A stretch of 32,442 bases of DNA from a bacterium (GTDB taxonomy: Bacteria; Verrucomicrobiota; Verrucomicrobiia; Limisphaerales; UBA8199), in assembly GCA_021784555.1 (NCBI GenBank), contig JAJYHY010000049.1:1-32442 (forward strand), read 5' to 3'. Positions 2,427 to 29,000 of the stretch are shown here, piece after piece. A program made the position numbers and the translations under genes. The notes under the pieces are model-generated. The model was not told where the DNA came from and did no database searches. It was given only the letters and a program-made list of their open reading frames with translations. Each line of letters starts with the position of its first letter. Position 1 is the first letter of the stretch.

Positions 2427-2427
2427 G

Positions 2428-12100: not shown

Positions 12101-13292
12101 TGCGCTGGGGCAATTGGCCGTAAACAATCTCGAGAATGCGACCTTTGTCGGAATCGGCCCGCATCATGACCGCGTTGGTGGCGCGCACGTCGAAGACACT
12201 TCGGGAAGCTTTGGAATCCTGTTCTGCGAATTGCTGAAGAAGTTTCGGAACCGGGAGAGCATTGCCGCGATGGTTCAGGTGGCAATAATGCATGATGACG
12301 TTGAACCATCCGAAGTTCCGGTTGGCAGCAAAGAAGGCAGCCTCTTTGAGACCATCCGGGTAGTCCTTCATGGAGGCCCAAATGTCCGGCCGGTTCGATT
12401 GGACGTATTGCCAATAATCCTCGACATCGTGGAAGGCGTTGGACTGAAGCTCGACGTATTCAGTGCGGCGTTCGAGCGCCTTGATACCACCGAGGAAATT
12501 GCTGACGGACTTGGCGGTAAGGAGAAGGAAATTGATTTGTGGAAAATCCAGGCGGGTGTCTTCGCGCTTGATGACGCGGGCAACGAGAGTGAGAAGTTCT
12601 TTCTCGATGCCAACCCGTTCGTCTTCCAGCAAGCCATCTCGCTGGACATCGGTGATGTCTTCCAACTCGTCGATGATGACGAGGAGTTGTTTGATGCCAA
12701 GTTTCTGCAGGATCTTCAAAGCGTCGTTGGCGGCCTTCGCGGTGTCCCTGGATTCAAGAGCAGCCGAAAGTTCCGCCCTGATCCCTTCAAAGCCCTTAGC
12801 ATTGAGAACTTGGATGAGGCGGTCGAAGATACGGGCCTGGTTGCGCCTGCTGGTGTGGCCGGTGCTGGCGCTGGGAGGGTGGACCAGGTACCGAAGCGCC
12901 TTTACCGCACAGGCGGGAATCCAGCCTTCGATCGTGAGCTGGTCTTTGAGGGACTTATCGTCCGTAATCTGGTTGTAGCAGAGGAAGAGGGGCAGAATAC
13001 CTTCTTTCAGGCCAGGCTCTAGGAGCCTTTGTCCGCGGCCTTCAACGATCCAGTCGGCGTCTGGATCAACGGCGTGGCGACAGACCTCGTGGCCGACGCG
13101 GCTCTTGCCGAGGCCCCAACCGCCCACGAGGAGGAAAAAGCCGGCAAGCTGGTGGGAGTTATCAAGGATGTCCCGTTTGTACTTGAGCAGCTTTTGGAAA
13201 ACGTCTTTTTGGCCGACGACCGGCAGCATGGTCTCGGGCTCAAAGATGGAAACACCTTGAGGCATCCAGGGGTTACGCGTGGCGGAAGGCAT
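9126..13292 (-). CDS. large P-loop ATPase (1388 aa)
   Basis: A Walker A motif LVGGWGLGKSR (core GGWGLGKS, residues 57-64) lies close to the N-terminus, and a Walker B LVIIDELED is at 203-211, followed by a sensor-like NFLLLTAKS segment. The AAA+/STAND-like module occupies roughly the first 400 residues. The remaining 1000 residues are largely helical, with no further motif I can name. Size and plan recall the giant ATPases of multigene phage-defence systems such as BrxC of BREX, but I see no specific signature. The ATG at 13292 was preferred because it lies one base after the stop of the previous gene. A TTG at 13325 would extend it by 11 residues. Likely role: ATP-dependent sensing or assembly of the effector complex. 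Confidence 0.8.
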   Translation of the reverse strand: MPSATRNPWMPQGVSIFEPETMLPVVGQKDVFQKLLKYKRDILDNSHQLAGFFLLVGGWGLGKSRVGHEVCRHAVDPDADWIVEGRGQRLLEPGLKEGILPLFLCYNQITDDKSLKDQLTIEGWIPACAVKALRYLVHPPSASTGHTSRRNQARIFDRLIQVLNAKGFEGIRAELSAALESRDTAKAANDALKILQKLGIKQLLVIIDELEDITDVQRDGLLEDERVGIEKELLTLVARVIKREDTRLDFPQINFLLLTAKSVSNFLGGIKALERRTEYVELQSNAFHDVEDYWQYVQSNRPDIWASMKDYPDGLKEAAFFAANRNFGWFNVIMHYCHLNHRGNALPVPKLLQQFAEQDSKASRSVFDVRATNAVMMRADSDKGRILEIVYGQLPQRIAPEGISEPDANRLFQKRFEATGQPLFAPVAEVDAPRDQLPKWLRDEGFRWAESGSEFILPGQARIDLDVVLSSLASYSIRLGKPDQQHFLVFEDLAEFTEQLRGLTPYDQEATVFGPALHRFLMQPAFRVKEAHQERRYLAPSFSFLLRFNLLNKRGKVESGYLRDSRKDTILHQRLNDIKNERKQYVAALLQGLAQAWEGDQSVETQPLDDLETPAIGFTSSQPPLSIGAKGRVSLLLVGPGGDDLKRLQEDLRKLAPRIERPAHPIVLVVENAPDQEQLLLAMAAKVAPALAPFLIVRSFSSTQAELLVRLGLLANTGGLALADPRTNQFIGGISVAREHLSRALKDSPGSWIERLGTSGLILNPIFFRKVTTASDWAVLARGHSLMLQRKKSFNELLRDGDETFTDDERDVLRKRVPEQVTPPARYAGQDPLPLFREINGEYQADVPCQLVRVLASFGSVARTPQQLEPLFLYSANDPAPQEILRQICAFLENAGLLDIEAGGKYRRVSATSMKDGLQRCEDWLHGPGEKDLPACIARIRSVHEKDADDNLALRTKQANDDLKRVRQLVEKVSLSFLDESASDLNTPRPDVVTGTDKPRFFLAFREAVAALHEARLTIGRIYEVGPFGDLLRNYSRELLQDYESNHNRADFPLWKRAGILAGFYAELNKLKAQLLERIAAHYRAGHEEIPDGADGKKLFPTQVLTLPLKVWQQELEFPNDNPQRTIRIGQTSLGITSLGFQIAAGNYNKAWQRVCEIEAELTQPDKLVARYFECLKKWRSLQEGWSALRRLGDDWDAFFSGTDASIRTRFKMDNLIGNLRIFGQVFDGSIRHGVDEDEPMISCFKLVDSLEREVRSVLGLPETIHGVIENIAQGVVTSLTEEFKAAHQDVIGAWARIRAASNQPLESWPSKLAATYLDTRKAFVDLVARAEAEGRAFFADVSELKWEDYLALCRMDIQGGEIPWDQAPYSGYVAALQRKRLVRLKLV

Positions 13293-13293
13293 A

Positions 13294-14376
13294 TCAGATA
13301 GGAGTTGAGTGTTGGCGAATGGCAAACTTCACGAGTTGCTTGCGAGGATCGCCGAGCAGGCCTTCACCATGAATGGGTTGGCCATAATCGTGGGCAACGA
13401 GGTCAATCACGCCCTGGTGAATCAAACTGTCCACAAGCTGGTCTGGGTCGCCAATCCCTTCAGCCACCGCGTGCTGGCGCAGCTCGGAGAAAACGAGAAA
13501 TCCGTTGTCGCCTGAAAGTTCTCGGATGCAGCGGAAGATGAGTTGCTCGGGACTAAGTTGGGTTGGGATTGGAGCGCCCAAGTCAGCGAGCAATTCGGAC
13601 GGCAGTATTTGTGTGGCCATAGCAGCTTGCCATGTGACTTCGCCGCCGGCTTCAGCGACCAAGCCAAGGTTCAGAAAAAGTTCGAGGGAGCCACGGAGCG
13701 CACGGCCGATGTCGTTAAGAGAGAACGCCTCGGCTTCGGCACCCACCAGGAAGATCTCGTCAGCCCGTTGAATCTCGGGTTCGTTTCGCCACTGGCCCAA
13801 TGCCCATTTTGCCCGATTCTGGATAAGGTGGTGGAATGGCGTGTCCTTTGCCGATTTGGGGAGGAATGGCTGCAAGGTCGTGCCTGGCAATTCTAGAATC
13901 GCATCCTGGCTGCGCCCGCCGAACCACGAAGGTTTGGCGAATCGCAGGACAGCGTCCGGTTGAACAAGCAACTGCATCATGACTCGAGTTCTTGGTTCCC
14001 GATTAAGCAGGAGGGTGGCCAGGAAGGCTTTCCACTCGGAACTCGCTGAATTTGAATGATATAGCTTAGCGAGCGTCCGGCCGGCGTCGGAAATGGCGTA
14101 ACCCTCGTTACGTTTTTCGAGCAATCCAATCCCTCGCAGGATGGGCTCCCCAGAGCGGGTCTTGCCCCATCCGGGAAGATTGAACACGACTTCATCGAAT
14201 TTAACATTGCCTGCCTGATCGGGTTGAAAGCCGAAAGCTGCCTTGGCGACAGAAGCGGTGGTGGGGTACGTGACGTTGGCGTCAAGCCGAAGCAAAAGCT
14301 CCGGCCAAGCCTGGAATCGGGGCGGTTCGACCCAGAGGAAAAGCTTCGTGAGATGTACTTTAATGGCTGGGTTCAT
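13294..14376 (-). CDS. hypothetical protein (360 aa) with winged-helix-like region
   Basis: The N-terminal part reads FLWVEPPRFQAWPELLLRLDAN, then VAKAAFGF and GLLEKRNEGYAISDAGRTLAKLY. The last segment looks like the recognition helix and wing of a winged-helix domain (about residues 40-110). Winged-helix-like patterns may recur in the C-terminal third (EQLIFRCIRELSGDNGFLVFSEL). The middle contains SWFGGRSQDAILEL. I cannot name the family. The start is placed at ATG 14376, 17 bp inside the previous gene. A GTG at 14403 is possible. It lies directly upstream of the giant ATPase (1 bp gap), so it may be a DNA-binding partner or loader of that protein. Confidence 0.7.
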   Translation of the reverse strand: MNPAIKVHLTKLFLWVEPPRFQAWPELLLRLDANVTYPTTASVAKAAFGFQPDQAGNVKFDEVVFNLPGWGKTRSGEPILRGIGLLEKRNEGYAISDAGRTLAKLYHSNSASSEWKAFLATLLLNREPRTRVMMQLLVQPDAVLRFAKPSWFGGRSQDAILELPGTTLQPFLPKSAKDTPFHHLIQNRAKWALGQWRNEPEIQRADEIFLVGAEAEAFSLNDIGRALRGSLELFLNLGLVAEAGGEVTWQAAMATQILPSELLADLGAPIPTQLSPEQLIFRCIRELSGDNGFLVFSELRQHAVAEGIGDPDQLVDSLIHQGVIDLVAHDYGQPIHGEGLLGDPRKQLVKFAIRQHSTPI

Positions 14377-15865
14377 TAGCAGGGACAGAGACCACGGCCT
14401 CACTAGGGGCCTTTTCGCTGTAAAATTGTTTGAGCGTGGCAGCGATCCGGTCGCGGATCGGGTTCCCCTCCCGGAGGACAGATTTCATAAAGTCCTGACC
14501 GTGGAGAGCGTCGAAGAGGTCATCGCTGATCATGTATTCTCCTGAGCGAGAAAGGAGAAGCCCGCCCTGCAGCATGAGCAAGAGCGCCCGGAGCCAAGGC
14601 TGTGAGGCGTAGGAGTCCACAGGGGGAGGGACGGTAAAAATGTTTAGTGCGCTGGCGAGAGAGCGCATGGTTTCGTCGAACTGGCCCAACCTGACGAAGC
14701 GAGTGTCGCGGGACTCGGGACGGAAGTAGATATCAATGGTCTCGGGGTTCTCGGGGTTTCCGACATAGAGGATGTTCAGGCAGTCGTCCTGCAATTCGCG
14801 ACCGAAGGCCTCCACGAGGAAGAACTGCAGAATGAGACCGAAAAGCGGATGGTCAAAGGTCCATCCGAATTCGCGCTTTTCGGTTCCAGCGCGGAAGCGT
14901 AGGCACTCGGCGATGTTTCCTAAGTTCAAATCAAACTGTGGAAAAGAGCCCGCGCGAACATCCTCCAGAGCGGCGCCGCGGAGGGAACTTCCTGTTGGAG
15001 GGGCCTCTTCTGCGAGGACTGCACTCTCTTTGATCGAGGCCGGGAGGGTGACCGGGGGAGACACCTGAGAACCGGAGGAATCCTTTGGCTTGGCGGCCAG
15101 CAGACGGAGTGGACTTACCAAAGCTGCGCAAGCGCGTAGATCGGTGGTCTTTTTCCAATGGCGGATCGGAAGGTGGAAATCCAAAGCTAGATTTTCCAGG
15201 ACTTTGAGGTCTCTATCCGCGAGCGCGACGGCCTCTTTTTCCTGGGCCGCACGGATGATCTCGCCCACGAGGGCGGACTGCCCGGATTTGAAATGGAGAC
15301 TCGCTGCCCGCGCGTATGTCGGCTGGTGCGCTACCGGCCCATAGATGTCCACGAGGAGCGGAAAAAGTTGCTCCGCGCCGCCAAGAATGTCGCCAAATAG
15401 ATCAGCGTCCCAGGCGACGAAGCAAGTTCGGAGCGAAGGATGGAGCCATCTGTTTTCAAGATCGGACCACTGCGCGTCATCGCGGTGATCGGGCACCAGG
15501 CTGAGGAGCCAGGCTAGCCTGGGAGCGAGTTGGGACAGCTTCGTGGAGAGATACTCGGCAACCTTGGCGGTGCGACCATCACGGGCCATGCGGGAAAGGA
15601 CGCGGCCGAGAATAAAGTCGAGATGCAGCCGATAGGCTGGGTCTCGAAATGCGACGCGGCGCGCTAGATCAACAGGGGTGTGAGCGGGCAAAGCGGTGGT
15701 GACCCAATCCTCGGTGGCTTCCAGATAATTTCCCCGGCAGCGAGCAACGCCCAGGAATTCCAGCCACTCAGGCAAAGGAGGATCGAGGGACGCGCGACCC
15801 TGCCATGCGAGCTGGCATAGGCAATCGCCAAGCGCGGAAAGTGAATCTGGACGGGTTACGATCAT
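14360..15865 (-). CDS. hypothetical protein (501 aa) downstream of the methyltransferase
   Basis: Not recognised. The N-terminal 260 residues are predominantly helical and rich in Leu/Ala/Arg/Trp, resembling a helical repeat scaffold. A low-complexity Ser/Pro/Ala linker (about 270-300) leads to a C-terminal domain containing FGWTFDHPLFGLILQFFLVEAFGRE, NPETIDIYFRPES and a final helical part (SGEYMISDDLFDAL). Its ATG shares one base with the methyltransferase stop (TGATG), a strong sign of translational coupling and of a stoichiometric partnership. No catalytic motif, signal peptide or membrane helix is evident. A structural role beside the methyltransferase is inferred from position only. Confidence 0.75.
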   Translation of the reverse strand: MIVTRPDSLSALGDCLCQLAWQGRASLDPPLPEWLEFLGVARCRGNYLEATEDWVTTALPAHTPVDLARRVAFRDPAYRLHLDFILGRVLSRMARDGRTAKVAEYLSTKLSQLAPRLAWLLSLVPDHRDDAQWSDLENRWLHPSLRTCFVAWDADLFGDILGGAEQLFPLLVDIYGPVAHQPTYARAASLHFKSGQSALVGEIIRAAQEKEAVALADRDLKVLENLALDFHLPIRHWKKTTDLRACAALVSPLRLLAAKPKDSSGSQVSPPVTLPASIKESAVLAEEAPPTGSSLRGAALEDVRAGSFPQFDLNLGNIAECLRFRAGTEKREFGWTFDHPLFGLILQFFLVEAFGRELQDDCLNILYVGNPENPETIDIYFRPESRDTRFVRLGQFDETMRSLASALNIFTVPPPVDSYASQPWLRALLLMLQGGLLLSRSGEYMISDDLFDALHGQDFMKSVLREGNPIRDRIAATLKQFYSEKAPSEAVVSVPANEPSH

Positions 15866-17763
15866 CAGGCGGTTTCAGCTTCAAGTTTCGGTCCCTCACG
15901 GTAGCCTTCTACGATCTTGACCAGGTCGTTGGGGATGGGCTTACCGCCTTCGATTAAGGTCTCCTTGTTGGCCTTAATGTCAAAACCTACCTTGTTGGCC
16001 ACGGCCATGTAAATGGGACCTTGCTCATCACCAGGCCGCTTTTTTTGAAGATAGAGAAAGCTCGTTTTGGCGCCGGCACCGGAAAGGCGGAATGTGACAG
16101 GCGGAAGGCTCACGACAGCTTTGACGACGGCTTTGCCGCCAACGAATTTGCCCGTCTCCTCGTTCTTGACGCCCATGATGTATTCCCGCACGTAACGATC
16201 CCCCGAATTACACAGGATGCCGTCGGGGACAACGATGACCAGGCGGCCACCCGGTTTGAGCAACTGGAGGCATCGGTCAATGAAGAGAACAGCGGGGTCA
16301 ACGCTTTTGACCGGATTCCATTTCCCGTTTTTGTCGGGCTTGGCGCCCAAGGCGAGTTTGTCGCCGAGCATGCCGCACCGCCCGCCAACGACGTCGGAAG
16401 TGAATAGCTTGAGGATCTCGTTACCGTGATCAGTGTCCAGGCGAATGCCGCCTTTTTTGAACGGGGGGTTCGTCAGGATGAGGTCGAGAGACTCGGGCGC
16501 AAGAATGGTCTCCGTGAGGGAATTGCTGACCTGAAAGATGCGGGATTTCGGGTCTCCATGGAGAGCCATATTGATGCGCGCCATGAGGACCATGCCCGGG
16601 GCATTATCCATGCCGATGAAGCAATGTTCGTAAAGTTCACGGAGGAGGGACTTCTTTTGAGCGTCGGTAAGCCCCATAAGTGCGTTCACCCGGCGGCGAA
16701 CCTCACGCATCGCGGTGACGAGGAACCCCCCGGAACCTGAGCACAAGTCGGACATGCGGAAAACCGGTCGGCCGGTCTTGGGGTCACGGCGGGTGAGTAG
16801 ACCAGGGTCTTCTTTGAGGATATCGAAGAAGACAGTCTCGATCATCGCGTCGCGGACTTGCTGCGGGGTGAGATAGATTCCGACGCCGCCCTTGCTCTCA
16901 AACTTGGCACGGAGCATGACATCGAACGCACGGCCGAGGATGTCATCATCCAGGTTGCTCAGGGTATGTTTGCCGAGCATGCCGAAGACGTGAACGAAGG
17001 TGTCCGGTTTGTTGAGTCTGATAGCGTCCGCCGGATCCCAAATTCGGAAGGAATGGCCATCCTCGCCCGTGAGATTGTATTCCTCCAAATCCCTGACGGC
17101 CTGGAATGCGACTTTGATTTCTTGAACTGCGGCATCGCGCTTCTTGGCGATGCGGTCGGGATCCAGCACTTCTTCGAGGAGCTTGTCGAGATTGGGAACC
17201 TCGTAATCCGGGTGCTGCTCTAGATGCATCTTGAGGAAAATGCATTTGCAGAGCTCGTAGGTGATGTCGTTCTTGCCGTTTACATTTTCGCGGGCTGCGT
17301 AAATGTATTCGTGAAGATCATCAAATTCCTTTTGAAGAACTTTGTAATCAGAAGCGGACGCCGCCGTTTTGGCGGGGCCAGCCTTGGATTTGGCAATGAG
17401 TTCCTGCCATTTGGTGCGCGTAGGCAGACCACTGACCTGGCGCTCTTCGAGCCAGCTAAAGAAATAGCCGTCGGCAAGGTCGGCGCTGTTGGTGGCCCAG
17501 ACAAAATCGGCTGTGCCTTGTGGCAACTGTGAGGCAGCGAGCTCAGCGAGGTTCTGTTTCTCCGGCGTAATAGGTTCTCCTGGCGGGATCAGTGAGACAA
17601 AGATAGCTGGGCGATCATTCTCCATGACCACAAGGCCTTCGACGCTATCGAGTTTGACCTCCTGGGGCGCTGAGAACTGCAATTTTTCCTTGATCAAGCG
17701 GGAGACTGTCTCTGCCAGCGACGGGGCCGCCGAGCCTTTACCTTTGTTTTCTTTCTTGGGCAT
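15865..17763 (-). CDS. type I-like N6-adenine DNA methyltransferase (HsdM-like) with N-terminal extension
   Basis: The 632-aa protein transfers a methyl group from S-adenosylmethionine to adenine N6. GIYLTPQQVRDAMIE (295-309) is the HsdM hallmark before motif I, DLCSGSGGF (339-347) is motif I, and TNPPF (431-435) is catalytic motif IV of the (D/N)PPY/F type. Helical HsdM N-terminal elements lie at about 140-290. The first about 125 residues form an extra domain (VEGLVVMENDRPAIFVSL ... DFVWATNS) that looks like an HsdR N-terminal nuclease fold lacking its catalytic residues. It sits 4 bp after the small winged-helix gene and is coupled to the 501-aa gene. The S-like proteins encoded at 5496 and 19155 are its presumed specificity partners. 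It supplies the self mark of the system. Confidence 0.92.
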   Translation of the reverse strand: MPKKENKGKGSAAPSLAETVSRLIKEKLQFSAPQEVKLDSVEGLVVMENDRPAIFVSLIPPGEPITPEKQNLAELAASQLPQGTADFVWATNSADLADGYFFSWLEERQVSGLPTRTKWQELIAKSKAGPAKTAASASDYKVLQKEFDDLHEYIYAARENVNGKNDITYELCKCIFLKMHLEQHPDYEVPNLDKLLEEVLDPDRIAKKRDAAVQEIKVAFQAVRDLEEYNLTGEDGHSFRIWDPADAIRLNKPDTFVHVFGMLGKHTLSNLDDDILGRAFDVMLRAKFESKGGVGIYLTPQQVRDAMIETVFFDILKEDPGLLTRRDPKTGRPVFRMSDLCSGSGGFLVTAMREVRRRVNALMGLTDAQKKSLLRELYEHCFIGMDNAPGMVLMARINMALHGDPKSRIFQVSNSLTETILAPESLDLILTNPPFKKGGIRLDTDHGNEILKLFTSDVVGGRCGMLGDKLALGAKPDKNGKWNPVKSVDPAVLFIDRCLQLLKPGGRLVIVVPDGILCNSGDRYVREYIMGVKNEETGKFVGGKAVVKAVVSLPPVTFRLSGAGAKTSFLYLQKKRPGDEQGPIYMAVANKVGFDIKANKETLIEGGKPIPNDLVKIVEGYREGPKLEAETA

Positions 17764-17767
17764 AAAA

Positions 17768-18145
17768 TCAGGCTTTGTATTTGATCATTCCATTCTTGAG
17801 CAGCTCGAAGGTTTTGGTCTCGCTCAATATGGTGAGCAACTCATCGGCGGTGGGTTTCTGTTGTACCTCGAGTCCCGCGAGAGCGGTTTCGGCCTTAAAA
17901 AGATGTCGGCCCGTGGTTTGAACATGGTGTTCGAGTGCGGCTATGACAGCGTCGGCTTTGGGGTCGGTCTTCAGGAGCCAGCGATCGGACTTGAATGCGA
18001 ACTTTTCGGACAAACGCAGAAAGCACTCAACCGCACCAGGGTTGGGGGTGGCACCCTGTTGGCGGAGCGCGACTTCCAGTTCTCCGACGGTCAAGCCGGA
18101 GGGGCGGGCGTGGAGCAGCCGGAAAAGTTGTGAGTCCAGTTTCAT
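17768..18145 (-). CDS. small winged-helix-like protein (125 aa)
   Basis: The product starts MKLDSQLFRLLHARPSGLTV. Its first half (LTVGELEVALRQQGATPNPGAVECFLRLSEKFAF, ending SDRWLLK) reads like a helix-turn-helix with a short wing. The second half is helical and ends in ELLKNGMIKYKA. The family is not recognised. A longer frame extends upstream, but the ATG at 18145 overlaps the previous stop as ATGA, so this is the likely start. It lies between the receiver-domain gene and the methyltransferase. It could be a DNA-binding output partner of the receiver protein or a regulator of methyltransferase activity; the sequence does not decide. Confidence 0.7.
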   Translation of the reverse strand: MKLDSQLFRLLHARPSGLTVGELEVALRQQGATPNPGAVECFLRLSEKFAFKSDRWLLKTDPKADAVIAALEHHVQTTGRHLFKAETALAGLEVQQKPTADELLTILSETKTFELLKNGMIKYKA

Positions 18146-19158
18146 TTCGTTGCGCCGGCTGATGCGGATAGGGTCTTGATCCAGGGCGCGTAGACCTTGC
18201 GATGCCAAGGAAGATACCAGTCTAGTACATCTTGGACTATCATAACGAGGATACGGCACAATCTGTCGGCATTCTCCAAGCGTTCCACGGGCACCTTGCC
18301 GTCTCCCCAAGTTCCGTAGTGGCCTGCGCCGTCGTGGAAAGGCCCCGTATCCGAGATGTGGATAATGCCGTTCCGAAAATTATTGATAGCGTAAAGGTGC
18401 TCGATGAGGTAGCCGCGTAAGACCCAATCCCCGGCGCTGCCTTTCAGGAACTTGAGGTTGCAAAATGATGGCCCTCCCGCTTTTATTGGGTTGAAGTTCC
18501 TGGCGAGGTACTCACGGATCAGGTCACTGAGCTGTTTGCCCGAGAGGCCGGTTTGGTCGGGCAGTTTCTGTTCGTACTGGGCGATGTTCCTCATGAGAAG
18601 GCAGGAAAGGGTGAGGCACGCCAGCGAACGGCTTTCCGCGGTCTCTTCTTCGTCCGTGAGCGTTTGATAATATGGTTCAGCCGCTGACCAATCAGCCCGG
18701 ATCTCCCCAGTGTAGGGATCCTCGCTGTAACGGTTTAGAATTTCCGGCAATGCGGTCGTCAGCTGGCCTTTCATCGCTAGGCCAACGACAATGGCTTTGT
18801 AGTTTCCAAGCCACAGGTTCCGCTCGTAATTCTCATTCACCTCACCGGACACGATAACCACGCTCATCTTGTGGGGCCCTCGCCGGTTCAGGTCATTAAG
18901 GATCAAATCAAGTATAGTTCGTCCGTGGTCTTTGGTAGGCTTGCTGTCGTTGGCATTGAGCGGGATGTTCAGGTCAAGGAACAGAAGGTCTATGTCCCGA
19001 CATTTTGCGTCCAGGCCCGCGCGAGCGCCGTCAAAGTCGGTCCACTTGCCGACACAATGGCCCAGACTCATGCCTGCACCTTTGATCACGACCAACAGGT
19101 TCTCAATTGCGTCATGACGATCTTCCACAATAGCAAAGCGTAGTTCTGACAGTTTCAT
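18142..19158 (-). CDS. response-regulator receiver domain fused to HEPN-like C-terminal domain
   Basis: Residues 1-135 form a REC domain: acidic pair E12-D13, phosphoacceptor D62 in LLFLDLNIP, S104 in VIVSGE, and K130 in LAMKG. Unlike canonical regulators it has an insert after D62 (NANDSKPTKDHGR). The C-terminal part has no DNA-binding motif. It is helical and contains NNFRNGIIHI (R262-N-x3-H267), which matches the Rx4-6H signature of HEPN RNases, followed by a His/Gly/Asp-rich loop and further helices. HEPN domains are common abortive effectors. The gene overlaps the kinase gene as ATGA, so the two proteins are very likely a signalling pair. REC assignment firm; HEPN assignment from one motif and helical context. 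Confidence 0.8.
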   Translation of the reverse strand: MKLSELRFAIVEDRHDAIENLLVVIKGAGMSLGHCVGKWTDFDGARAGLDAKCRDIDLLFLDLNIPLNANDSKPTKDHGRTILDLILNDLNRRGPHKMSVVIVSGEVNENYERNLWLGNYKAIVVGLAMKGQLTTALPEILNRYSEDPYTGEIRADWSAAEPYYQTLTDEEETAESRSLACLTLSCLLMRNIAQYEQKLPDQTGLSGKQLSDLIREYLARNFNPIKAGGPSFCNLKFLKGSAGDWVLRGYLIEHLYAINNFRNGIIHISDTGPFHDGAGHYGTWGDGKVPVERLENADRLCRILVMIVQDVLDWYLPWHRKVYAPWIKTLSASAGATK

Positions 19159-21272
19159 GCTGGTTTATTGATTTGATGTTGCAGTGTCCCCAAAAAACGA
19201 CAACCTGGCCCGGTAGCATTCTTTTCGAGATCGCAGACACCGAGGACCGCGGAAAAGATCTGCCTCACGATGGGAAGGCCATAACCGCTGCCTTTTCCCG
19301 AGGAGAAATGCCCGGTAGTCCCCCAATCGAACGCGCCGTCTATTAAGTCTTTGTCTGCCGGCAGTCCGTTGTCCACGACTTCGATAAGCGCCGAGCCTTG
19401 TTGAGGCGCCTGGGTCCGGAACGAAACCTCAATCCGAGGCGGTACATGCACCATCTCTCGGTACGCGTTGTCGACAACGTTCCGCAGAGCTTCGCACAAC
19501 AGGTCCGGATCGGCGTAAACGACCCCTTCCGCATCTACTTGGACTTTGTTGACTAGCTCGCATGGTTTCCCATGCAGCTGGGACTGGACGCAGTCCCAAA
19601 GGCTCTTGCCTAGCGGAGCCACCGGAACCCAAGTCGGATTGCTATGCGTCTCGGCCCTAGCCATTAATCTTATCTTCCTCGAGAGGTTCAGCAGTTCGCC
19701 GTGGGCATCCCTTATGCGCCGGATCCAAGCGGTTGCCGAATAACTCGCCAATGGCTGATTGCGGTCGACTGCCAGTTCCCTGGCAGTGGCCTCGTCCGGA
19801 AGCAATTGCTCGCCGACACCTGAGCTGCCCGCCCACTTTATGAGCTGGTCCACGGCGACGTCGATGTTGTTCAAGGGATGATTTAACCGATGGACAAGAT
19901 TGGTGACGGTTTGTTCTGCTGCCAACTTTTGGAGCTGGGGAAGAAGCTGCAATTGCTGCCTGAGATAGCTCGCCCAAATAACGCCCTGGCTTCGAAGGGC
20001 TTCATGGGCCCCTTTTTCGTCAGGCCATTGTGGGGGCCCTGCGACCAAAAGCACCCCGTATGGCCGTCCGAGCCGGTTGATACGCAACGCCAGCAGCGGC
20101 GGACAACATTTTGCGAAAACCTGCAGAGCCTCTTCAGACGCGCTGAACGCGCGCTGAACCGGGCGGTTTGCTGCGAGGAAATCCTGGAATCTTACACCGA
20201 CGGGCTTGGCCTCCTTCCATGCCTCCAAGCTCGAAAAAAGAGCAGAAACTTTCCTGGGGTCGCCATTTGGCACCAGCTTCAGCTCACGGCAGAAGGAATA
20301 GTCCAATACGACCGTACCTTGAATCGAATTAAAAATGCAAAAGGGCTCGGTCGTACCTTTTGCCCAGTCCAGGAAGGCCGAGGGTGGCGAGACTTTCTTG
20401 GCAACCAATTTCTGTTCGGCTCTCGGCAGTGCCCAGACGTTGCTAAACAACATGTGCGGCTCGTCTGGTTGCCATTCAAGAAACAGGGGTGGCAGTTGGG
20501 CGGTTGTGGGAAGCTTTAGCAGCTCGTTTTCGACGTTTTCGATGACCTGTGCAAATGTTGCCCCGGCGGGACCAGCGAGTTCCGGCGCTGTTTCGGTGGG
20601 GGGGGCTTCCAGCAGGCTGGCCCGCGCACGAACAGACTGAGCAAGCTTTTCCTGCTGCGCTCGAGAAGGGACAGCAACGAAAACATCGAGCACATCATGA
20701 ATATTGAGCAGAGGAATCGTAGAGCCGGCCGGCAGCCGAAACAGTTGGAGCGTCACATAACGCTGGGTTAGCTCGTGTGCCAAATAAGCCGCGTCCACAT
20801 CTGGCCCGGGAGCTAGCGCAATGATGCTTCCGCTCAGAGCGATCGGTCCGCCGTGTATCGCGGGAGAGTAGAACGCAGCATAATGGGGCACACCGGAAAC
20901 GAGAGATATGAGGACCGACTCCTGGTTGAGAAGCGGCGGATTGGCTTCGCTTTCGAAAACCGACTGGCCGGACGCTTTCAGGTCCACAAATTGGCCGGAG
21001 TGGAACGAAGCCGTCGTAACGTAGGGAAACACACCGCTTGCGGTGGCTGACGGGACACCCTTGGTTGCATAGTGAGTTACTATTGCGGAGCAAATATTTC
21101 TGAGGGGCGTCAGTTGGCCGGGCCGGTCCGCTGCGAGTTCAGCGATTTCGTCGAAAGCAGGGTGATAAAAGGGAGCATCCCAACGCTGAGTCAATGCATT
21201 GGGAGGTATCCAACGCTTGAAACTCTCGTCCCCGAGCAACTGCTCGATAAATCTTCTCGGTCTAGCCGGCAT
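19155..21272 (-). CDS. HsdS-like recognition domain fused to histidine kinase core
   Basis: Numbering is from ATG 21272 (705 aa); an in-frame TTG at 21296 would add 8 residues. Residues about 25-215 form an S-subunit-like target-recognition domain: QRWDAPFYHPAFDEI at the start, PYVTTASFHSGQFVDL, then VFVAVPSRAQQEKLAQ at the helix junction. A middle region (about 250-430) contains FNSIQGTVVLDYSF and VLLVAGPPQWPDEK and may be a sensory or GAF-like domain. The C-terminus is a histidine kinase: H-box VHRLNHPLNN (H461), N-box EALRNVVDNA (N598, N602), G1 DNGLP (634-638) and G2 GKGSGYGL (659-666). No membrane helix is visible, so it acts in the cytoplasm. Its stop overlaps the receiver gene. It probably reports DNA recognition by phosphotransfer. 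Confidence 0.85.
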   Translation of the reverse strand: MPARPRRFIEQLLGDESFKRWIPPNALTQRWDAPFYHPAFDEIAELAADRPGQLTPLRNICSAIVTHYATKGVPSATASGVFPYVTTASFHSGQFVDLKASGQSVFESEANPPLLNQESVLISLVSGVPHYAAFYSPAIHGGPIALSGSIIALAPGPDVDAAYLAHELTQRYVTLQLFRLPAGSTIPLLNIHDVLDVFVAVPSRAQQEKLAQSVRARASLLEAPPTETAPELAGPAGATFAQVIENVENELLKLPTTAQLPPLFLEWQPDEPHMLFSNVWALPRAEQKLVAKKVSPPSAFLDWAKGTTEPFCIFNSIQGTVVLDYSFCRELKLVPNGDPRKVSALFSSLEAWKEAKPVGVRFQDFLAANRPVQRAFSASEEALQVFAKCCPPLLALRINRLGRPYGVLLVAGPPQWPDEKGAHEALRSQGVIWASYLRQQLQLLPQLQKLAAEQTVTNLVHRLNHPLNNIDVAVDQLIKWAGSSGVGEQLLPDEATARELAVDRNQPLASYSATAWIRRIRDAHGELLNLSRKIRLMARAETHSNPTWVPVAPLGKSLWDCVQSQLHGKPCELVNKVQVDAEGVVYADPDLLCEALRNVVDNAYREMVHVPPRIEVSFRTQAPQQGSALIEVVDNGLPADKDLIDGAFDWGTTGHFSSGKGSGYGLPIVRQIFSAVLGVCDLEKNATGPGCRFLGTLQHQINKPA

Positions 21273-21307
21273 TTGGGTTGTCTGTTTTTCTACCAATTAC
21301 CGGTACC

Positions 21308-21410: not shown

Positions 21411-21426
21411 CGTAACAAATGTTACG
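21411..21426. promoter_or_regulatory. palindrome, possible activator-binding site
   Basis: CGTAACAAATGTTACG is a perfect inverted repeat with 7-base arms and a 2-base centre. It overlaps the stop codon of the activator gene and is centred about 120 bp upstream of the predicted sigma-54 start. That is a usual distance for an enhancer-binding-protein site. Confidence 0.4.
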
Positions 21427-22984
21427 TTTTTCGTCCAAAAAATTTCCTGCACTTCTTGCGAAAGGTGGGTTCCTCGTAGCCCAAATGCCGGGCGGCCGCG
21501 GAGCGGTTGTTTTGGAACCGCTTGATAGCTTGCTCCATCATGTCTTTTTCCCAGTCGTCTATGATTTGGGGGAGATTGATGGGCATGTCACCGATGGTCG
21601 CGAGGGGCGTGGAGGCTGCGGCCACCGTGCGGGGCTTGGGCCTGCTGAGTGTGAGGTCCCATGTTTTGATGGTATCGCCCGAGCAGGCGATGGCGAGGCG
21701 TTCGATGACGTGCTTGAGCAGGCGGATATTGCCCGGCCAATCCTGCTCCTGGAGAATGGCAAGCACGGCTGGCTCGAAGGAGATGGTCTTGTTGTGTTTG
21801 CGGCAGAACTCGGCGAGAAAAGTCTGAGCGAGGAGCGGAATATCCTCCTTTCGATCCCGGAGGGGGGGCAGGTGAATATCGGCGGTGTTCAGGCGGTAAA
21901 GGAGGTCCTCGCGGAACTTGCCTTCACCGACCATGGCATTAAGGTCGCGGTTCGTGGCGGCGATAACGCGCGCCTCGGATTTCTGAATCTTCTCGGAACC
22001 GACGGGCATGAAGGTCCCATCTTCCAGCACACGGAGCAGTTTGGCCTGCAGCGCCTGGGGGAGCTCGCCGACTTCATCGAGAAGGACGGTTCCTTTCCCG
22101 GCGAGCTCGAAAATCCCTTTCTTGGGCTTTAAGGCACCAGTGAATGCTCCGGCGACATGGCCGAAGAGCTCGCTGTCGGCGAGCGTTTCAGAAATGCCAG
22201 CACAATTGACCGGGAGGAATGGCTGTTGAGCGCGGGGACTGGCGAAGTGGACCAACTTGGCGAATTCCTCCTTGCCGGTGCCGGTTTCGCCGGTGATGAG
22301 GACCGGCATATTGTAGGCGGCAAACTGCTTGGCCGTTTTGACGGCCCGGCGAAAGGCGGGGTGTTCTCCAGCCATGCCGGTAGCGACGTCGCGGGCGGCG
22401 GCCTCGCGCTCGCGGGTGAGTATTTCGACCTGGTGTTTGGCGGCGGAGAGTTCTCGCTGGAGCCGGGCCGGGGAAACGATCTTCGGAAATCGTTCGAGGG
22501 AAGGTTTGATTTCGCGGACAGGAGAATCTCCGGGCCGAAGCTTGTGGGGCGGGACCAGCTGAACGAGGCGGGCCTTGAAGACGCCGCCGAGGACCAAGAG
22601 CAGCCAGCAGGTCTGCATCTGGGGGGTGCCGGAAGAGGTCGCGACGGTGAACTGGGCGGTGTTGCCGTATTTGGCGGCAAGTTCGACGCAGCGGTTGTGC
22701 ATCAGCTCGTAAAGCAGATCGTGGTTGGTGGGATCTGGAGCGGGGATGTTCTCGTAGGAGATCTCGATGTCGGGCCAGCGCTCGCGAGCTTCGGTCAGCA
22801 GGGCGCTGGCGCGGCGCAGGTAATCTTCGTTGTTGTGGAAGAGATGGACAGCCTCAAAGGTCTCGGCTTCCAACAGCGAGAGAACAGGGCCGTAACCGCT
22901 GGAGGCGTCGCCGCCCCGCCAGGGATCGTGACTTCCCACGAAGGTCAGCAATACGCGTTTCGCTTTCGACGGCGGTGTTTTCAT
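21422..22984 (-). CDS. RtcR-like sigma-54-dependent activator with CARF-type sensor domain
   Basis: The 520-aa protein has an N-terminal CARF-like domain (VLLTFVGSHDPW, residues 12-23, and the ligand-loop pattern ATSSGTPQMQ, 115-124), a coiled linker (about 170-200), a sigma-54 AAA+ domain (GETGTGKE 232-239, GAFTGA 279-284, LLDEVGEL 301-308) and a C-terminal Fis-type helix-turn-helix (about 485-520). The architecture is that of RtcR, which senses RNA damage products through its CARF-like domain. CARF domains in general bind cyclic oligoadenylates or related RNA ends. GAFTGA is intact, so it should activate sigma-54 promoters, presumably that of the following operon. ATG 22984 is preferred. 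An in-frame TTG lies at 23032. An 8-codon open frame (MKQTSPSN, 22984-23010) ends overlapping this ATG as TGATG. Confidence 0.88.
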   Translation of the reverse strand: MKTPPSKAKRVLLTFVGSHDPWRGGDASSGYGPVLSLLEAETFEAVHLFHNNEDYLRRASALLTEARERWPDIEISYENIPAPDPTNHDLLYELMHNRCVELAAKYGNTAQFTVATSSGTPQMQTCWLLLVLGGVFKARLVQLVPPHKLRPGDSPVREIKPSLERFPKIVSPARLQRELSAAKHQVEILTREREAAARDVATGMAGEHPAFRRAVKTAKQFAAYNMPVLITGETGTGKEEFAKLVHFASPRAQQPFLPVNCAGISETLADSELFGHVAGAFTGALKPKKGIFELAGKGTVLLDEVGELPQALQAKLLRVLEDGTFMPVGSEKIQKSEARVIAATNRDLNAMVGEGKFREDLLYRLNTADIHLPPLRDRKEDIPLLAQTFLAEFCRKHNKTISFEPAVLAILQEQDWPGNIRLLKHVIERLAIACSGDTIKTWDLTLSRPKPRTVAAASTPLATIGDMPINLPQIIDDWEKDMMEQAIKRFQNNRSAAARHLGYEEPTFRKKCRKFFGRKT

Positions 22985-23122
22985 CAATTCGACGGCGAAG
23001 TTTGTTTCATTTTGGTGATCTTTCCAAGCCAAAGCTGTCTGAATCCAGAATCTGCCGATTCATTCGGCCCGGCGCGCCCAAGGCCGACTCCAGACCTCCC
23101 TTAGGCCTGCTTGAAGCGAGGG

Positions 23123-23571
23123 TCACTTCTTGAACAGCAGGTAGAGCACCACGATCACAATCAGCCACCACACCCATGCCGACCAGCCCTCAGCCTTGGT
23201 TGGCTGCGGAGAGGGGGTGGGGCTCGATGGAGCCGCTCGGCGGTGGCTTCGCCAGAACGGAATTTCACGGCGACCGTTGCCTCGGGCAGTTCTATCACCA
23301 TGCTGGCCTTCTTCCGTAGTTGCGGCGAGCGGGTTCGCTTGGCGGTTCGCGCCTGGCGGACCGTCAATCCCCCGTTTTGGGCCTGCCGCCAGAGGCTTTG
23401 CTGCCCGGCGGGATCGTTTTGCTTCGCGATTTCCAGTAAGACCGACTTGGTGGCGTGTTCAGACGTCTGAACAACGGCCAGCAAGCCGGGTTCCAGGTCG
23501 AGAATCCGCAGGCTTTGGTTGATAGCAGCCACGGACTTCCCCACCCTCGCGGGCAGGTCACGCCGGGCCAA
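23123..23571 (-). pseudogene. ParB-family remnant with frame-shifted membrane tail
   Basis: The frame 23571-23161 reads ARVGKSVAAINQSLRILDL ... KSVLLEIAK ... LTVRQARTAKR, then ATVAVKFRSGEAT. This is the helix-turn-helix and following part of ParB/Spo0J-like proteins. The N-terminal ParB catalytic domain is missing because a stop lies just upstream. At the other end, the minus-one frame over 23203-23123 encodes WSAWVWWLIVIVVLYLLFKK and a stop, a clear C-terminal membrane helix after a Ser/Pro-rich linker. The two frames join around a C-rich run (near 23205-23220). I read this as a decayed or frameshifted gene for a membrane-tethered ParB-like protein. A sequencing error in the C run could explain the frame change but not the missing N-terminus. 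Confidence 0.55.
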
Positions 23572-23726: not shown

Positions 23727-25967
23727 TCAAGGCTTGCCGTGGCAAACTGTCTTGCGTTGATGGGTGTTGGGCATTGAATCAGCGATGTGGGCGAGCTCTA
23801 CGCGGACGATGGCAGCCAGGAGATTTTCCTGGTTCGATGAGTGTTCAGCCTCCCCGTTTTGGAGGACTCCCGTGAATGTCTTGGGGACCAGGAGCGCGCT
23901 CCGGATCCGGTTGGGGTGCGACCAGTACTCGCGGAGGGCAATGTTTTGCATGAAAACCAGGGGGTTGCCGGCGAAGGGGCTGTGGTTTTCGCCGTTCCGG
24001 GACACGAATGCCGGCCAACTGAGAGTATCGTCAGTAGCATCGAGAAACTCGCTCAGGCGCATGCGTCGGAAGCGTATCCGACAGGACTCTTTCGCCAGAG
24101 CTTCGAAGCCCTCGGACAGCGATTCCGGCGCTTGGTCTCCTCGCAGTACTCTCGGCCCCAGATCAGCGAGGAGCTGTCTGGCCTCAGCCCGGAGTTTGCC
24201 CAATCCTGCCACCTCTTGTATTCGGGTCTGGAGGATCGCGAGTTGATGCTCGTCCCACGGCACCTGGGCGATTGGCTTTGAGCGGTGGTACGGCAGCAAT
24301 CCTGTTCCATGATCCTCAAGAACCATCGCGGCTTCTCGGATCCGCCTAAGTCTGCCTTGCATTTTTTCGAGTTCGGCCAAGGCGGCGTTCATCTCGGCTG
24401 AGATGCACTGGCGCACAAGAGCGTTCAGGCTCGCCCTCAACTCGCGCTGAACCTCATCAGCCAAGTGTCGGGCCGCGTTTCTGGCGACGCGCCAGGCACG
24501 ATGATGGCGCCACGCCAGGTGAGCCGAGGCGGCCATGGCCCCAAGTGCGGAAACGCAGTAGAAGGCCGTCTGAAATCGCAAATGCAGAACGCGTACCAAC
24601 ACCGCGAGAGCCGCAAACGGGGCAAAGCGTAAGAGCGCACTCATGGCCAAGCGCGCTGCCGATGGGACATTGGAGACTGCTTGTTCGAGCTCAGCAGACC
24701 TTCGATCCACTGAATCACCCGAATTGACCTGGGGAGCATCGTCTGTCCAATACAAGGTCGCGAGGCCGTCTTTGATTTCCTGGCAGATGCCCTCGGCGGC
24801 GGAAATGCCCTCCTGAACCAGTGCCTCGACGGCTTGGTCAATTGCGTCCCCCATCTCGGCAACGCGCGCCTCGGTCAGGGCAGCCTTGATGCGTGAACCG
24901 ACGCAGGGTACGGTCGCGCTCGCCAGGAAATTGCGCGCGGTTTGAATCAGTTGCGGCCATTCCCGGAAAGACTGGTTGCCGACCATTGCCGGCAAGGCGG
25001 CCCCGTTGAAATCGAAGCCCAGCGCGTAGTTTTTTCCTCGTAGAGCGGGTGTGATAGACGGCGGTTGGTCCTGGCCAAAGACCCTCGTTACAACGCCGTC
25101 CGAGTTCAGATTCAACCCGGCCAGGACCTCCCGGGGGGAGCGAATGCACCTCGGTTTTCGTCCGTTTTCTTTCTGCGGCGCGAGCAAGTGTTGCTCCATC
25201 AGTTCAGAGGCAACCGAGGCTTTTAGACTGTCCGCCGCGGCGTCTGGGTCGTAGAGTGCGCCCTTGATCCCAATCGCGTGAAGTGTGATGGACTGACCGT
25301 CGTCCGTGTCAGTCAGGATTCGGGGCGCTCCCTTCCGTGCAATCACGAGGTCCGCGAAGAGCGCAACCGCTATCGCCTCGGCCAACTCACGGCGTGCCAC
25401 GGGCCGTCCGTCGCTCAGTTCCGGGCAGGCGCAATAGAGGACAACCGGCTTGGGAGCCAGCGCCGCGAATTCCCGGATCCAGGCGTGAAACTGTGTTTCG
25501 TCCGCATCAAACGGCATCTCATGCTCCCCTGCCAGAAAGAAGATAAGGAAGCGCGAGTATGCGTCCGCCTCCTTTGCGAGTTGCGCGACGAGAACTTGGC
25601 GGAGACTGTCGTCCAACAGGTGCCTTGCCCCCAGAACAGCCGCGCATTGGGGCGCAGCCCTTCCCTCGAGATCGGTCGGGTAGAAGGGCACCCCCCTGGA
25701 GAGTTCAATCCCGGTCCACTGCTCGATCTTTCGATCGCCTTCAACAGCCGCGCCAAGGGCTTGAGGCCAGGCGGCGTCTTTCACTGGGGCAAACCGAAGC
25801 GCACCGGAAAGAGGCGGAGTCGCCCCCGCTAAAAGGCTCTCGAAGAAGCGGGCGATCTCTTCGCAAGCCTGCTGGCCGGCCTCGTAGAGAAGCATGGCGC
25901 AGGCAATGGCCGGGCGATGCTGCTCAAGCGGATCCAGGATTCGGCGATTCTCGGTAGATGCGTTCAT
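23727..25967 (-). CDS. membrane-associated hypothetical protein of the tubulin-like/vWA operon (746 aa)
   Basis: I do not recognise the family. About 435 N-terminal residues are soluble-looking, with alternating beta (FLIFFLAGEHE, PVVLYCACPE, ADLVIARKGAPRIL) and helical parts. They are followed by two hydrophobic helices (about 439-461 and 465-485) with the basic segment AWRHHRAWR after the second. This predicts a membrane hairpin with both ends in the cytoplasm. A coiled coil follows (RELRASLNALVRQC ... ALAELEKMQGRLRRIRE), then a C-terminal domain. There is no P-loop or other nucleotide motif. It begins 41 bp after the tubulin-like gene. A TTG at 25988 is an alternative start. It could be the membrane anchor that links the tubulin-like protein to the envelope. 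Confidence 0.75.
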   Translation of the reverse strand: MNASTENRRILDPLEQHRPAIACAMLLYEAGQQACEEIARFFESLLAGATPPLSGALRFAPVKDAAWPQALGAAVEGDRKIEQWTGIELSRGVPFYPTDLEGRAAPQCAAVLGARHLLDDSLRQVLVAQLAKEADAYSRFLIFFLAGEHEMPFDADETQFHAWIREFAALAPKPVVLYCACPELSDGRPVARRELAEAIAVALFADLVIARKGAPRILTDTDDGQSITLHAIGIKGALYDPDAAADSLKASVASELMEQHLLAPQKENGRKPRCIRSPREVLAGLNLNSDGVVTRVFGQDQPPSITPALRGKNYALGFDFNGAALPAMVGNQSFREWPQLIQTARNFLASATVPCVGSRIKAALTEARVAEMGDAIDQAVEALVQEGISAAEGICQEIKDGLATLYWTDDAPQVNSGDSVDRRSAELEQAVSNVPSAARLAMSALLRFAPFAALAVLVRVLHLRFQTAFYCVSALGAMAASAHLAWRHHRAWRVARNAARHLADEVQRELRASLNALVRQCISAEMNAALAELEKMQGRLRRIREAAMVLEDHGTGLLPYHRSKPIAQVPWDEHQLAILQTRIQEVAGLGKLRAEARQLLADLGPRVLRGDQAPESLSEGFEALAKESCRIRFRRMRLSEFLDATDDTLSWPAFVSRNGENHSPFAGNPLVFMQNIALREYWSHPNRIRSALLVPKTFTGVLQNGEAEHSSNQENLLAAIVRVELAHIADSMPNTHQRKTVCHGKP

Positions 25968-26008
25968 GGTGATTTGCTTGTGATTCAATCTCCCTGTGAA
26001 AAGCCCCT

Positions 26009-29000
26009 TTAGCGATTGGCCCGCAGGTTCTCGACCTCACGGCGGATCCACACGAGCTCGCGCCGAATTTGGTTGTAGAGGTCGTCCGATGGTTTGAGGC
26101 TCCTGGCAACCTCGGCGGCGTAGGATTCCAGGTCGCGGGCGACCACCACGTTCCCAGAGGCCGTGCAGAGGGCCTTGTGAAACTCCCGGACCAGACGGAC
26201 GGACTTTTGGGATCGCACGAACTCCTTGAGGGCCGCCGGGCGACCGGATTGCTCGCTGAGTTTTAGTGTCCGGTCCGGTTGAGGGGCTTGCCCAAAAGTG
26301 AGCTTTCCATGACCCGTCAGATGCTGGAATGAACCCATGTCGCTCCTGAGCGCACCACCTTGGAACGGGATGCAGTCCCAAAAAGACGTCACCGGGAGCT
26401 CAAATACTTCGGTTTTCTCGTCCTTCGTGAGGTTCAGGTAATACCAGGAGCCACGTCGGGCAATGACGCCGTACGCTGAGCCGAGAGCGAATTCCAACTC
26501 GCCATCAGATTCGGGGTCCGGGATCGCCAAGGGCGGCATAGCGTCCACCACAGCCGGGTCGAAAATATGGATCGGATGGGCTCCGCTACGCATCCAGGTT
26601 TCATAGCTCTGGCGGTACTTTTTCCACACGGTTAAGTAAGTCGGCAGTCCGCCATGTGAGCGGCGGAGCACGTAAATGCGGTGCGGGTCGCAAGTGGGCA
26701 CGAAATCCAGCCTGGCCAGATAGCGCGGGTCCTGGTTGACATTTGCCTGGATGTTCCGGGTGATTTCCCCGAGATGCCCGGCGGCTAACTCGGCAAAGCC
26801 CTCGGGTATCCCAACCACAAGGCTGTCCGAGAACGTCATTCCGGCCACGCCGATTTCCGCCTGCCACATTGGGCGGCAGGCCTGCAAGGCTTCCTCGAAC
26901 CGGGCCTGGGTCACCCGCGCCAGGTCGCCGCCGTGATCCAACTGAAATTTGAGCACGTCTGAGATGCTCAGTTTGTCAATCTGGTGAGCGAAGTGCTCCA
27001 ACGCGTACGCGGTAAGGCGGTTGCACAGTTGGGAAGCGGAGTCGCCATCCAAGAGCGCCATGGGTTGCGCACCAGCCGCTTCCGCGCCCTTCAGAAACTC
27101 CGGGGTGGAGAGTCGATGTTCAGCGTAGAACGACTCCAGGAACTCGGGGCTGACAACGTCGATTTCGCCGCGAGGGGCGACGTTCGCGGTCGTTAGAGCC
27201 GTTTTCTGGTCCTGCGAATTCCGGAGGGCCTCCGTGTCCAATCGGGCCGTACGCGTTTCGAGGTGTTCAATGGCCTCCGAGAATCTAGCGGAGAGGCGGT
27301 TGCTCGCCTCCCGGACCGCGGAGAGAATCATGGCCGACTGTAACTTCGCCGCGGCATCAACGTCGGCCGATACCTGGCTTCGGAACAGCCGGATCACCTC
27401 TTCCTGTGCGCCCGGGTTCCGGCCAAAACCGCTCCAGAACCGGATCAAGGCGCCGGTGATCTGCTCGATTCCCGCGGACGCGTCTGCGGCCTGAGCGCCG
27501 TACTGCTTGGCTTCCTCGGTGATTTGATTCGATGCCGAATCCAACATCTCGCCCAGAACCGTCAGGAACGAGGCCACAGGCCTGAGGCCGTCCGCATCCG
27601 CCATTGCAGCGACTTTGGTCTCGAGCGCGGCACAGTACTCTGACGCCAAGGCCGCGGTCTGTTCCCCCAGGCGTTGCGAAATCCCGGGCAGGCTGGAGTC
27701 TTTCCATGCCTGCTGCGCCTTGGCAAGCGCCGGCACAAAAAGCTTGTTCTTGAGATACCGCGGGCGGGATGGGTCGGCGTCGGCGTAAAGCGGAGCGGTG
27801 ATGCCATCCAATCCGGGTGTGGCCGCCGCTTTCAACCTGGTGGAGACGCACTCGGCGCCACCTTCGGTTCCTTCGTCAAACTGCGCTGCCTTGGCCCACT
27901 CGGTGATCGCGGAGTGGTCAATCGGAGAGTCGCTGCCGAGAAAGTGTTCCTGGATGAGTTCAGAAACGGAGCGGCACGCGAGATGGCTCGTTAACCGTTC
28001 CGCCGGCACAACCAAAGCCGTTGCGCTCAGCGTGCTGTAATTGCGCTTGCGCCCGCTGATTGGGCACACCGACAGACCCGCCACGGTGGCATCGTTGGCC
28101 CCGACAGCCTTAAACTTCCCGCCAATGGTTGTCCCGATGTGGCCAGCGAGATGAAGCGCCACCAGATCGAAGACGTCCTCCATGCTGCCAACGCTTCGCC
28201 CCTCGCTGTCGTACTTGCCGACCAGATAAACGTGGTCGAAGAGTTGTGCGGGCGCCCTTGTCGCCAACTGCCCCATGCGAAGACCGTCGGCGGCCGCTTG
28301 CCCTGTCTGAAAATAGTCTAGTTCGGTGGCGGCTGCGATGCAATTCGCCTCAATGCGCGCTTGCTCCTCGATCTTGCCCTGGAGGACATCCTCGTGGACT
28401 TCGGGCAGCGTCAGAATGGCCGTTATGGAGAGGTCAGAGCCCGCGAACTCCTGCCGAATCATAGCGGCGATATCAATGAACCAACTGGAACCGCTGCCGC
28501 CGTAATTCGAACCGACAATCTGAACCTCCAGCCCACGTTGGAACTTCACCGAATGCGAATCTCGCGTGTTCAACCGTCCCACCAAGGCAGTCCAGCGATG
28601 CTGCAGGGCATCGGCGGCCTGGTGAATCCGGGTTTGAACCAATTTGTGGTTGGCAGCCAGAGCCAGGTAGCCGATTGGGCGAACCTGTCCCGCGCCGGGA
28701 ATTCGACGCTCCGCGATGGTGGCCAGGGATTGCCAGGTCTTGACATCCGACAGGCCCAGCCGGGAGGCCATGGCAGAATGGTACTCGGGGCGGCGAATGA
28801 CGTCCCGGACCGAACGGGTGGGGAGCAGACAGAACTCCGCACTCGTAAAGCCCGGCAGGTCGCCCTGCGGCTCCTGCGAACGCGGGTCCGTGTCGAAAGC
28901 CAGAAGGCTCCAGCACCGGTCCCCGCCGTTGGGGTTGCGGGCCTTCACGCGGCGGAGTATCTCCGTCCCGGTTCCTCCCGGGCCGATGAGAAGGGTGGGG

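Follow-up and report, generated by a model that had tools for sequence, protein, structure and literature searches.

A specificity half-subunit and a histidine kinase in one chain

The window analysed here is a stretch of 32,442 nucleotides (positions 1 to 32,442 of contig JAJYHY010000049.1) from a Verrucomicrobiota bacterium (assembly GCA_021784555.1), and its subject is a minus-strand open reading frame (ORF) at 19155-21272 (705 aa from its ATG), whose product is best explained as a soluble histidine kinase that carries half a specificity subunit of the restriction type as its putative sensor. An earlier note, made from the sequence alone, had described a DNA-specificity domain fused to a histidine kinase at these coordinates; the ORF stands, the strand, which that note had left out, is minus, and the plus strand over the same interval holds many stop codons. 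An alternative TTG start at 21296 would give a 713-aa protein, so that H461 of the note (705-aa numbering) equals H469, N602 equals N610, D634 equals D642 and G661 equals G669. From N to C terminus, and all on the minus strand, the chain comprises a half-HsdS target-recognition domain (TRD; aa 28-228 of 713, 20613-21215), a middle domain that appears GAF-like at its end (aa 240-455 of 713, 19932-20579), a DHp-like dimerisation and phospho-acceptor region (19632-19931, with H469 at 19890-19892) and a HATPase_c domain (aa 596-702 of 713, 19191-19511). No transmembrane helix was predicted in it. Together with the gene of a receiver protein, the TRD-kinase gene heads an operon of ~11 genes, in which those from kinase to helicase overlap or nearly touch.

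To find orthologous loci, 84,980 genomes were scanned with an alignment that two synthetic filler rows weighted towards the H-box and NPPF peptides; the matches were confirmed against real sequence, and orthologues without these peptides would be missed. The scan yielded six methyltransferase orthologues (46-63% identity), at whose loci synteny was followed by tblastn of all window genes. An Acidobacteriaceae locus (L033) has the same gene order (RtcR, kinase, receiver, 125-aa protein, methyltransferase, 501-aa and 369-aa proteins, ATPase, 289-aa and 434-aa proteins, HsdS), and a Verrucomicrobia locus (L035) keeps kinase through ATPase, as far as the contig end. In both loci, as in the window, the genes of the kinase, the receiver and the 125-aa protein overlap one another and precede the rest of the methyltransferase operon. 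In the genome of a further locus (L034), a broken contig (L041) holds another receiver gene and a kinase reduced to its C-terminal 496 aa; followed by a 140-aa gene, they keep the window's order at the contig end. The TRD-kinase architecture is complete three times (window, L033 and L035), with the kinase half alone found a fourth time (L041); the full-length orthologues keep the whole of it at ~25% identity, and the arrangement is conserved across phyla (Acidobacteria and Verrucomicrobia). In a source genome as fragmented as this one (658 contigs), one might suspect that two genes were fused by chance or wrongly assembled into one, but this idea is refuted by the same full-length architecture in two other genomes from different phyla, in syntenic operons, and we give it next to no probability.

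The N-terminus is homologous to each half of HsdS

The AlphaFold model of the TRD-kinase is poor overall (pLDDT 40) and too weak to test the TRD fold, which was therefore judged by profile comparison. In PADLOC, 22 profiles matched the protein, all of them of specificity subunits or MAD5 and all within aa 60-237 (best E 1.6e-5). Aligned by hhalign with the HsdS of its own operon (5496-7091), the kinase N-terminus gave E 1.6e-5 with a three-sequence profile and a score of 45.4, against a top score of 22.4 in 200 column shuffles. With a profile of eleven HsdS proteins from loci of this operon type, the kinase N-termini reached E 3.6e-11 against its second half and 7.5e-10 against its first, while the middle domain, used as a control, gave E 0.77. 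The N-termini of L033 and L035 alone reached 7.4e-6; the L033 TRD tested by itself was not significant (E 0.015), which, like the poor structure model, counts against the explanation favoured below. By these comparisons the N-terminus is firmly placed as half an HsdS. That the N-terminus would prove not to be a TRD had been named beforehand as a possible refutation; the profiles speak for a TRD, and the structure model is too weak to judge. Each kinase chain has one TRD, compared with two in a typical HsdS, and because only one half is present the protein was not classed as HsdS.

In seven Desulfobacterota-class loci retrieved with a methyltransferase profile, the kinase-family profile found nothing but HsdS proteins, with the matches lying in the TRD halves (best 2e-8), and for this reason the fusion was probably born, as we infer, by copying half an HsdS within an operon of this kind.

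Between the TRD and the kinase lies the middle domain that had already been proposed for this protein, with a predicted two-strand hairpin followed by a long helix and with residues partly conserved in the four orthologues; Pfam found no match in it, here or in the orthologues, and its resemblance to the end of a GAF domain is weak. This domain bears on an unlikely alternative, in which the half-S would do no more than tether the kinase to the methyltransferase or to the restriction complex. The GAF-like middle or the ATPase complex would then detect the actual signal, a ligand or a partner, and the phosphorelay would still drive the receiver-HEPN protein. The conserved stretch of ~215 residues with GAF-like features speaks for it, as do the spacer helices of HsdS, which are protein-protein modules, and the poor conservation of the TRD core between the kinase orthologues. 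However, TRD cores of real HsdS proteins are poorly conserved too, because they set specificity, and the homology spans the TRD itself, beyond the spacer helices (alignment 25-233).

A divergent but probably active kinase core

An H-box and a HATPase core with N, G1 and G2 motifs had been read from the sequence, and these are not chance matches. The HATPase_c domain scores E 9.4e-10, above the Pfam cutoff, and 4.8e-12, 4.4e-8 and 4.6e-15 in the three kinase orthologues; H461, N602 (N-box), D634 (G1) and the G2 loop G661-S-G-x-G-L are invariant in all four. Lack of conservation of H461 had also been put forward as a ground for dismissing the claim; the histidine is in fact conserved. In the kinase model, which is of low confidence, CpxA, HK853 and ZraS are among the best structural matches (E ~1e-9). 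Two features argue the other way: the Pfam HisKA match (aa 461-493) stays below cutoff (E 0.2, 12.1 bits against 26.9), and the residue after H461 is R, T, Q or Q in the four orthologues and never acidic. In HisKA kinases an acidic residue after the phospho-acceptor histidine is typical, not universal. Because of these two features kinase activity is likely, not certain, and, as the acidic residue is missing, the protein was filed only as a divergent histidine kinase.

The same residues bear on the idea, which we consider improbable, that the kinase part is catalytically dead and acts as a scaffold that binds ATP and dimerises two half-S parts, so that the protein would be a second specificity subunit for the methyltransferase. 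The non-acidic residue after the histidine in 4/4 orthologues would fit it, as would the first asparagine of the N-box, which varies among them. Yet a scaffold would need neither the histidine, the metal-binding N-box asparagine, the G1 aspartate and the G2 loop, all kept in 4/4, nor a receiver with an intact acid pocket, which adjoins the kinase in every one of these loci.

The adjoining receiver protein has an RNxxxH tail

An output for the kinase, absent from the earlier note, is offered by the next gene (18142-19158, minus strand), which shares 4 bases with the end of the kinase gene and whose product is a response regulator of 338 aa with a receiver (aa 1-145) and a HEPN-like helical tail (aa 146-338). 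The acid pair E12 and D13, the phospho-aspartate D62, S104 and K130 are invariant in 4/4 orthologues at 27% identity. The receiver-containing proteins LiaR, PorX and CheY came out on top of a structure search, and Pfam Response_reg is weak on the window protein and reaches 9.7e-5 in one orthologue.

In the tail, R262-N263-x3-H267 is likewise invariant in 4/4 orthologues, and random placement of the same invariant residues produces RNx3H with a probability of 0.0009. RNxxxH is the catalytic motif of HEPN RNases, and the tail, putatively of HEPN type, is likely to cut RNA. Set against this, neither Pfam nor PDB profiles gave a HEPN match in the tail, and the model consists there of helices only, at pLDDT ~26-39 from residue 231 on.

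Alternatively, the kinase and receiver might form a control circuit, and no alarm, in which phosphorylation of the receiver protein times methylation against restriction, for instance when the operon enters a new, unmethylated host, with the tail as a protein-binding HEPN-like bundle and no RNase. We regard this as a distinctly minor possibility, doubtful but still to be weighed. In its favour, the genes of the kinase, the receiver protein and a 125-aa protein, probably a winged helix, overlap one another at the head of the window's methyltransferase operon, a gene for an RtcR-like bacterial enhancer-binding protein lies upstream in two loci, and some HEPN-fold domains are without nuclease activity. 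It is opposed by the invariance of RNxxxH despite so low an overall identity, with the small chance probability given above, and by the receiver protein itself, in which Pfam scans found no recognisable DNA-binding domain.

The module leads a restriction-like operon

The remaining operon genes, all on the minus strand, follow the receiver gene. The 125-aa protein (17768-18145) is conserved in L033, L035 and L036 and matches no Pfam family. The methyltransferase that had been expected in the same operon is there, in a tight minus-strand arrangement: an HsdM-like N6-adenine DNA methyltransferase (15865-17763; N6_Mtase 3.8e-21, PADLOC MTase_I 9.5e-152). Two conserved proteins of unassigned fold come next, one of 501 aa (14360-15865; orthologues in L033-L036) and one of 369 aa (13294-14403; L033-L038 and Desulfobacterota), and then a large AAA ATPase of 1399 aa (9126-13325; AAA_16 4.5e-4), a core component with orthologues in 6/6 loci. 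Conserved proteins of 289 aa (8229-9098) and 434 aa (7073-8377, an ORF whose true start is probably further in; 42-46% identity) have orthologues in L033, L034 and L036. The two-TRD HsdS-like specificity subunit (5496-7091; PADLOC Specificity_I 6.4e-12, MAD5 1.8e-11) is a paralogue of the kinase N-terminus, so that the methyltransferase has two candidate S partners in the operon, the kinase half-S and this protein. A superfamily-2 helicase of PbeA/Dnd-restriction-like type (3283-5499; ResIII 1e-24, PbeA 6.7e-53, TIGR04095 1.1e-36, the last below cutoff) completes the set. PADLOC models gave no match on the window ATPase and the unassigned operon proteins, nor on their scanned counterparts in L033 and L055, and no HsdR was recognised among the window proteins scanned.

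In the Firmicutes loci L037 and L038 the gene immediately upstream of the methyltransferase encodes an ordinary two-TRD HsdS, and a search of their genomes turned up no receiver of this family; in the Desulfobacterota-class loci L055-L061 HsdS lies directly downstream. Because these relatives carry an ordinary HsdS beside the methyltransferase, the kinase-receiver module is a signalling arm that one branch of a broader restriction-like system has in addition.

Two of these groups show further arrangements. L058-L061 carry tandem methyltransferase-HsdS pairs ahead of a shared core (a 442-aa methyltransferase with an S protein of ~450 aa, then a 665-aa methyltransferase with one of ~490 aa), as if two specificities fed one machine. 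Upstream of the Firmicutes operon in L037 lies, at 2301-7519, a Druantia DruE/YprA-like helicase, in two pieces around a masked stretch.

Searches of 97 relatives with the kinase, and of 388 genomes of the phylum plus these 97 relatives with the receiver, ATPase or methyltransferase (one of them at a strict 1e-40 limit), returned only the window and generic or very weak matches. Viral contigs scanned with one protein at a time, kinase or methyltransferase, and with arbitrarily chosen query peptides gave no match, and the receiver proteins had none among plasmids. The one plasmid match to the kinase that was examined belongs to a copper locus and is a histidine kinase of generic type.

A DNA-methylation alarm as a possible function

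As the best explanation of the whole, which we advance tentatively and at somewhat less than an even chance, a dimer of the TRD-kinase would dock the methyltransferase, read the methylation of its target and signal to the receiver-HEPN effector. Histidine kinases are dimers. Single-TRD S subunits are known to act as homodimers that read split palindromes, as in EcoDXXI deletions and the natural truncation of NgoAV (PMC3874165), and together these two facts make the DHp dimer a natural way of matching a pair of half-S parts to a pair of methyltransferases. As the DHp helices dimerise, the half-S parts of both chains would be brought together, and with two operon methyltransferases they could form an M2S2-like DNA reader. 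A target in the wrong methylation state, that is, foreign and unmodified DNA, would switch the kinase on; it would phosphorylate its own histidine, and the phosphate would move on to the receiver domain of the protein encoded next to it. The phosphorylated receiver would then release the HEPN-type RNase, and the cell would shut down or limit translation, as a back-up to the DNA-restricting arm (HsdS, ATPase and helicase).

The computed parts of this scheme are well supported: half-S homology, kinase core, phospho-acceptor, intact receiver, RNxxxH, and the operon with its conservation. On them we infer DNA or its methylation as the signal, DNA binding, kinase activity, phosphotransfer, RNase activity and the abortive outcome. 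Two considerations pull in the opposite direction, namely that binding of the kinase TRD to DNA or to the methyltransferase is a proposal, and that the GAF-like middle domain could be the true sensor instead of the TRD. That the operon houses a two-component system with DNA sequence and methylation state as its input, in which unmodified foreign DNA sets off a phosphotransfer by the TRD-kinase dimer that arms a HEPN RNase, is in our judgement possible, though not the side on which we would bet. For the operon as a whole we favour a restriction-like defence function, with a real, if lesser than even, chance of a new kind of signalling.

Recognition by a restriction-modification system normally ends in immediate, local cleavage of the DNA. 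Should the proposed reading be true, DNA methylation becomes a genuine signalling input with amplification, thresholds and reset, and two-component signalling gains a new input class, DNA itself; the input would also be modular, as a TRD swap would re-target the sensor. The TRD-kinase module would be a self/non-self alarm built from restriction-modification recognition and a phosphorelay, of a kind not described in the sources searched, since full-text searches of a partial literature collection turned up neither a TRD-histidine kinase nor this operon. The kinase and receiver parts are soluble and small, and the idea is directly checkable in vitro.

Comparison with known systems

With Type I restriction-modification the operon shares an HsdM-like N6 methyltransferase and a kinase N-terminus homologous to each half of HsdS, and half-S homodimers are known there as well (PMC3874165). 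It differs in the single TRD per chain fused to a histidine kinase, in the absence of a recognised HsdR among the proteins scanned, and in the added ATPase, unassigned conserved proteins and receiver-HEPN-like protein. Compared with MADS, the methylation-associated defence system (MAD1-MAD8), the methyltransferase resembles MAD2 and the S subunits resemble MAD5, but the matches (147 of 720 bits and 43.5 of 400 bits, respectively) are far below the curated cutoffs, and no other window protein scanned matched a MAD component. A MADS-like locus (L031) has a Ser/Thr kinase gene and no TRD-histidine kinase. Methyltransferase, giant ATPase and helicase, the last PbeA-like, recall BREX and the BREX-related (DUF499/Hma) systems; PglZ, BrxC/DUF499, BrxA/B and BrxL had no match among the window proteins scanned. 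By membership tests the operon is neither BREX nor MADS. Back-up effectors bearing HEPN or a histidine kinase have been reported beside BREX and its relatives, the histidine kinase in that survey being a minimal domain whose fusion partner is a Schlafen RNase and no TRD (PMC12839542). A link to YprA/ARMADA was dropped, as the ARMADA paper has no histidine kinase, HEPN or RtcR.

Canonical two-component systems share the DHp/HATPase kinase and the adjacent receiver with all catalytic residues, whereas here the sensor would be a DNA-specificity half subunit, the H-box lacks the acidic residue, and the output is HEPN-like instead of DNA-binding. Like the HEPN RNase effectors (Cas13, MNT-HEPN, Csm6-like), the receiver protein has an invariant RNxxxH in a predicted helical C-terminal domain; in contrast to them, the motif, from which the HEPN call is made, sits behind a phospho-receiver and not behind an antitoxin, CRISPR or CARF sensor.

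Genes around the operon

Upstream of the kinase, at 21422-23032 on the minus strand, lies the gene of an RtcR-like CARF sigma-54 activator (PADLOC RtcR_PspF2 1.5e-125; Sigma54_activat 2.1e-63; synteny), directly adjacent in two of the three loci (window and L033, 4300-5997) and not in L035, where a 1192-aa RNase_H_2-AAA helicase-nuclease takes its place (2381-5959). An RtcR-controlled repair operon is reported to respond to damaged tRNA (PMC7790460), and it may be speculated that the activator is linked to the receiver arm, as a HEPN RNase could generate damaged tRNA. A search for sigma-54 sites in the window found no excess; in L033 a perfect -24/-12 site (4367-4382, minus strand) faces two divergent unknown genes.

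Further upstream of the RtcR-like gene are three genes with gaps of 20-27 bp between them, for a Tubulin_2 protein (26009-29119), a VWA protein with four PKD repeats (29147-31333) and a 753-aa unknown protein (23727-25988), all on the minus strand; this set resembles the GTPase/tubulin/vWA conflict systems (PMC7159879). Neither L033 nor L035 showed genes of this sort upstream of its kinase. Between this cluster and the RtcR gene, a short minus-strand ORF (23161-23571) looks like part of a ParB-type partition protein and is possibly a remnant. At the other end of the operon, two adjacent apparent paralogues (1734-2495 and 2428-3171, both minus strand) have GGxFxINExxQVxxP-like motifs in common, and after them comes a coiled-coil protein (429-1724) that presumably resembles DUF2130 proteins.

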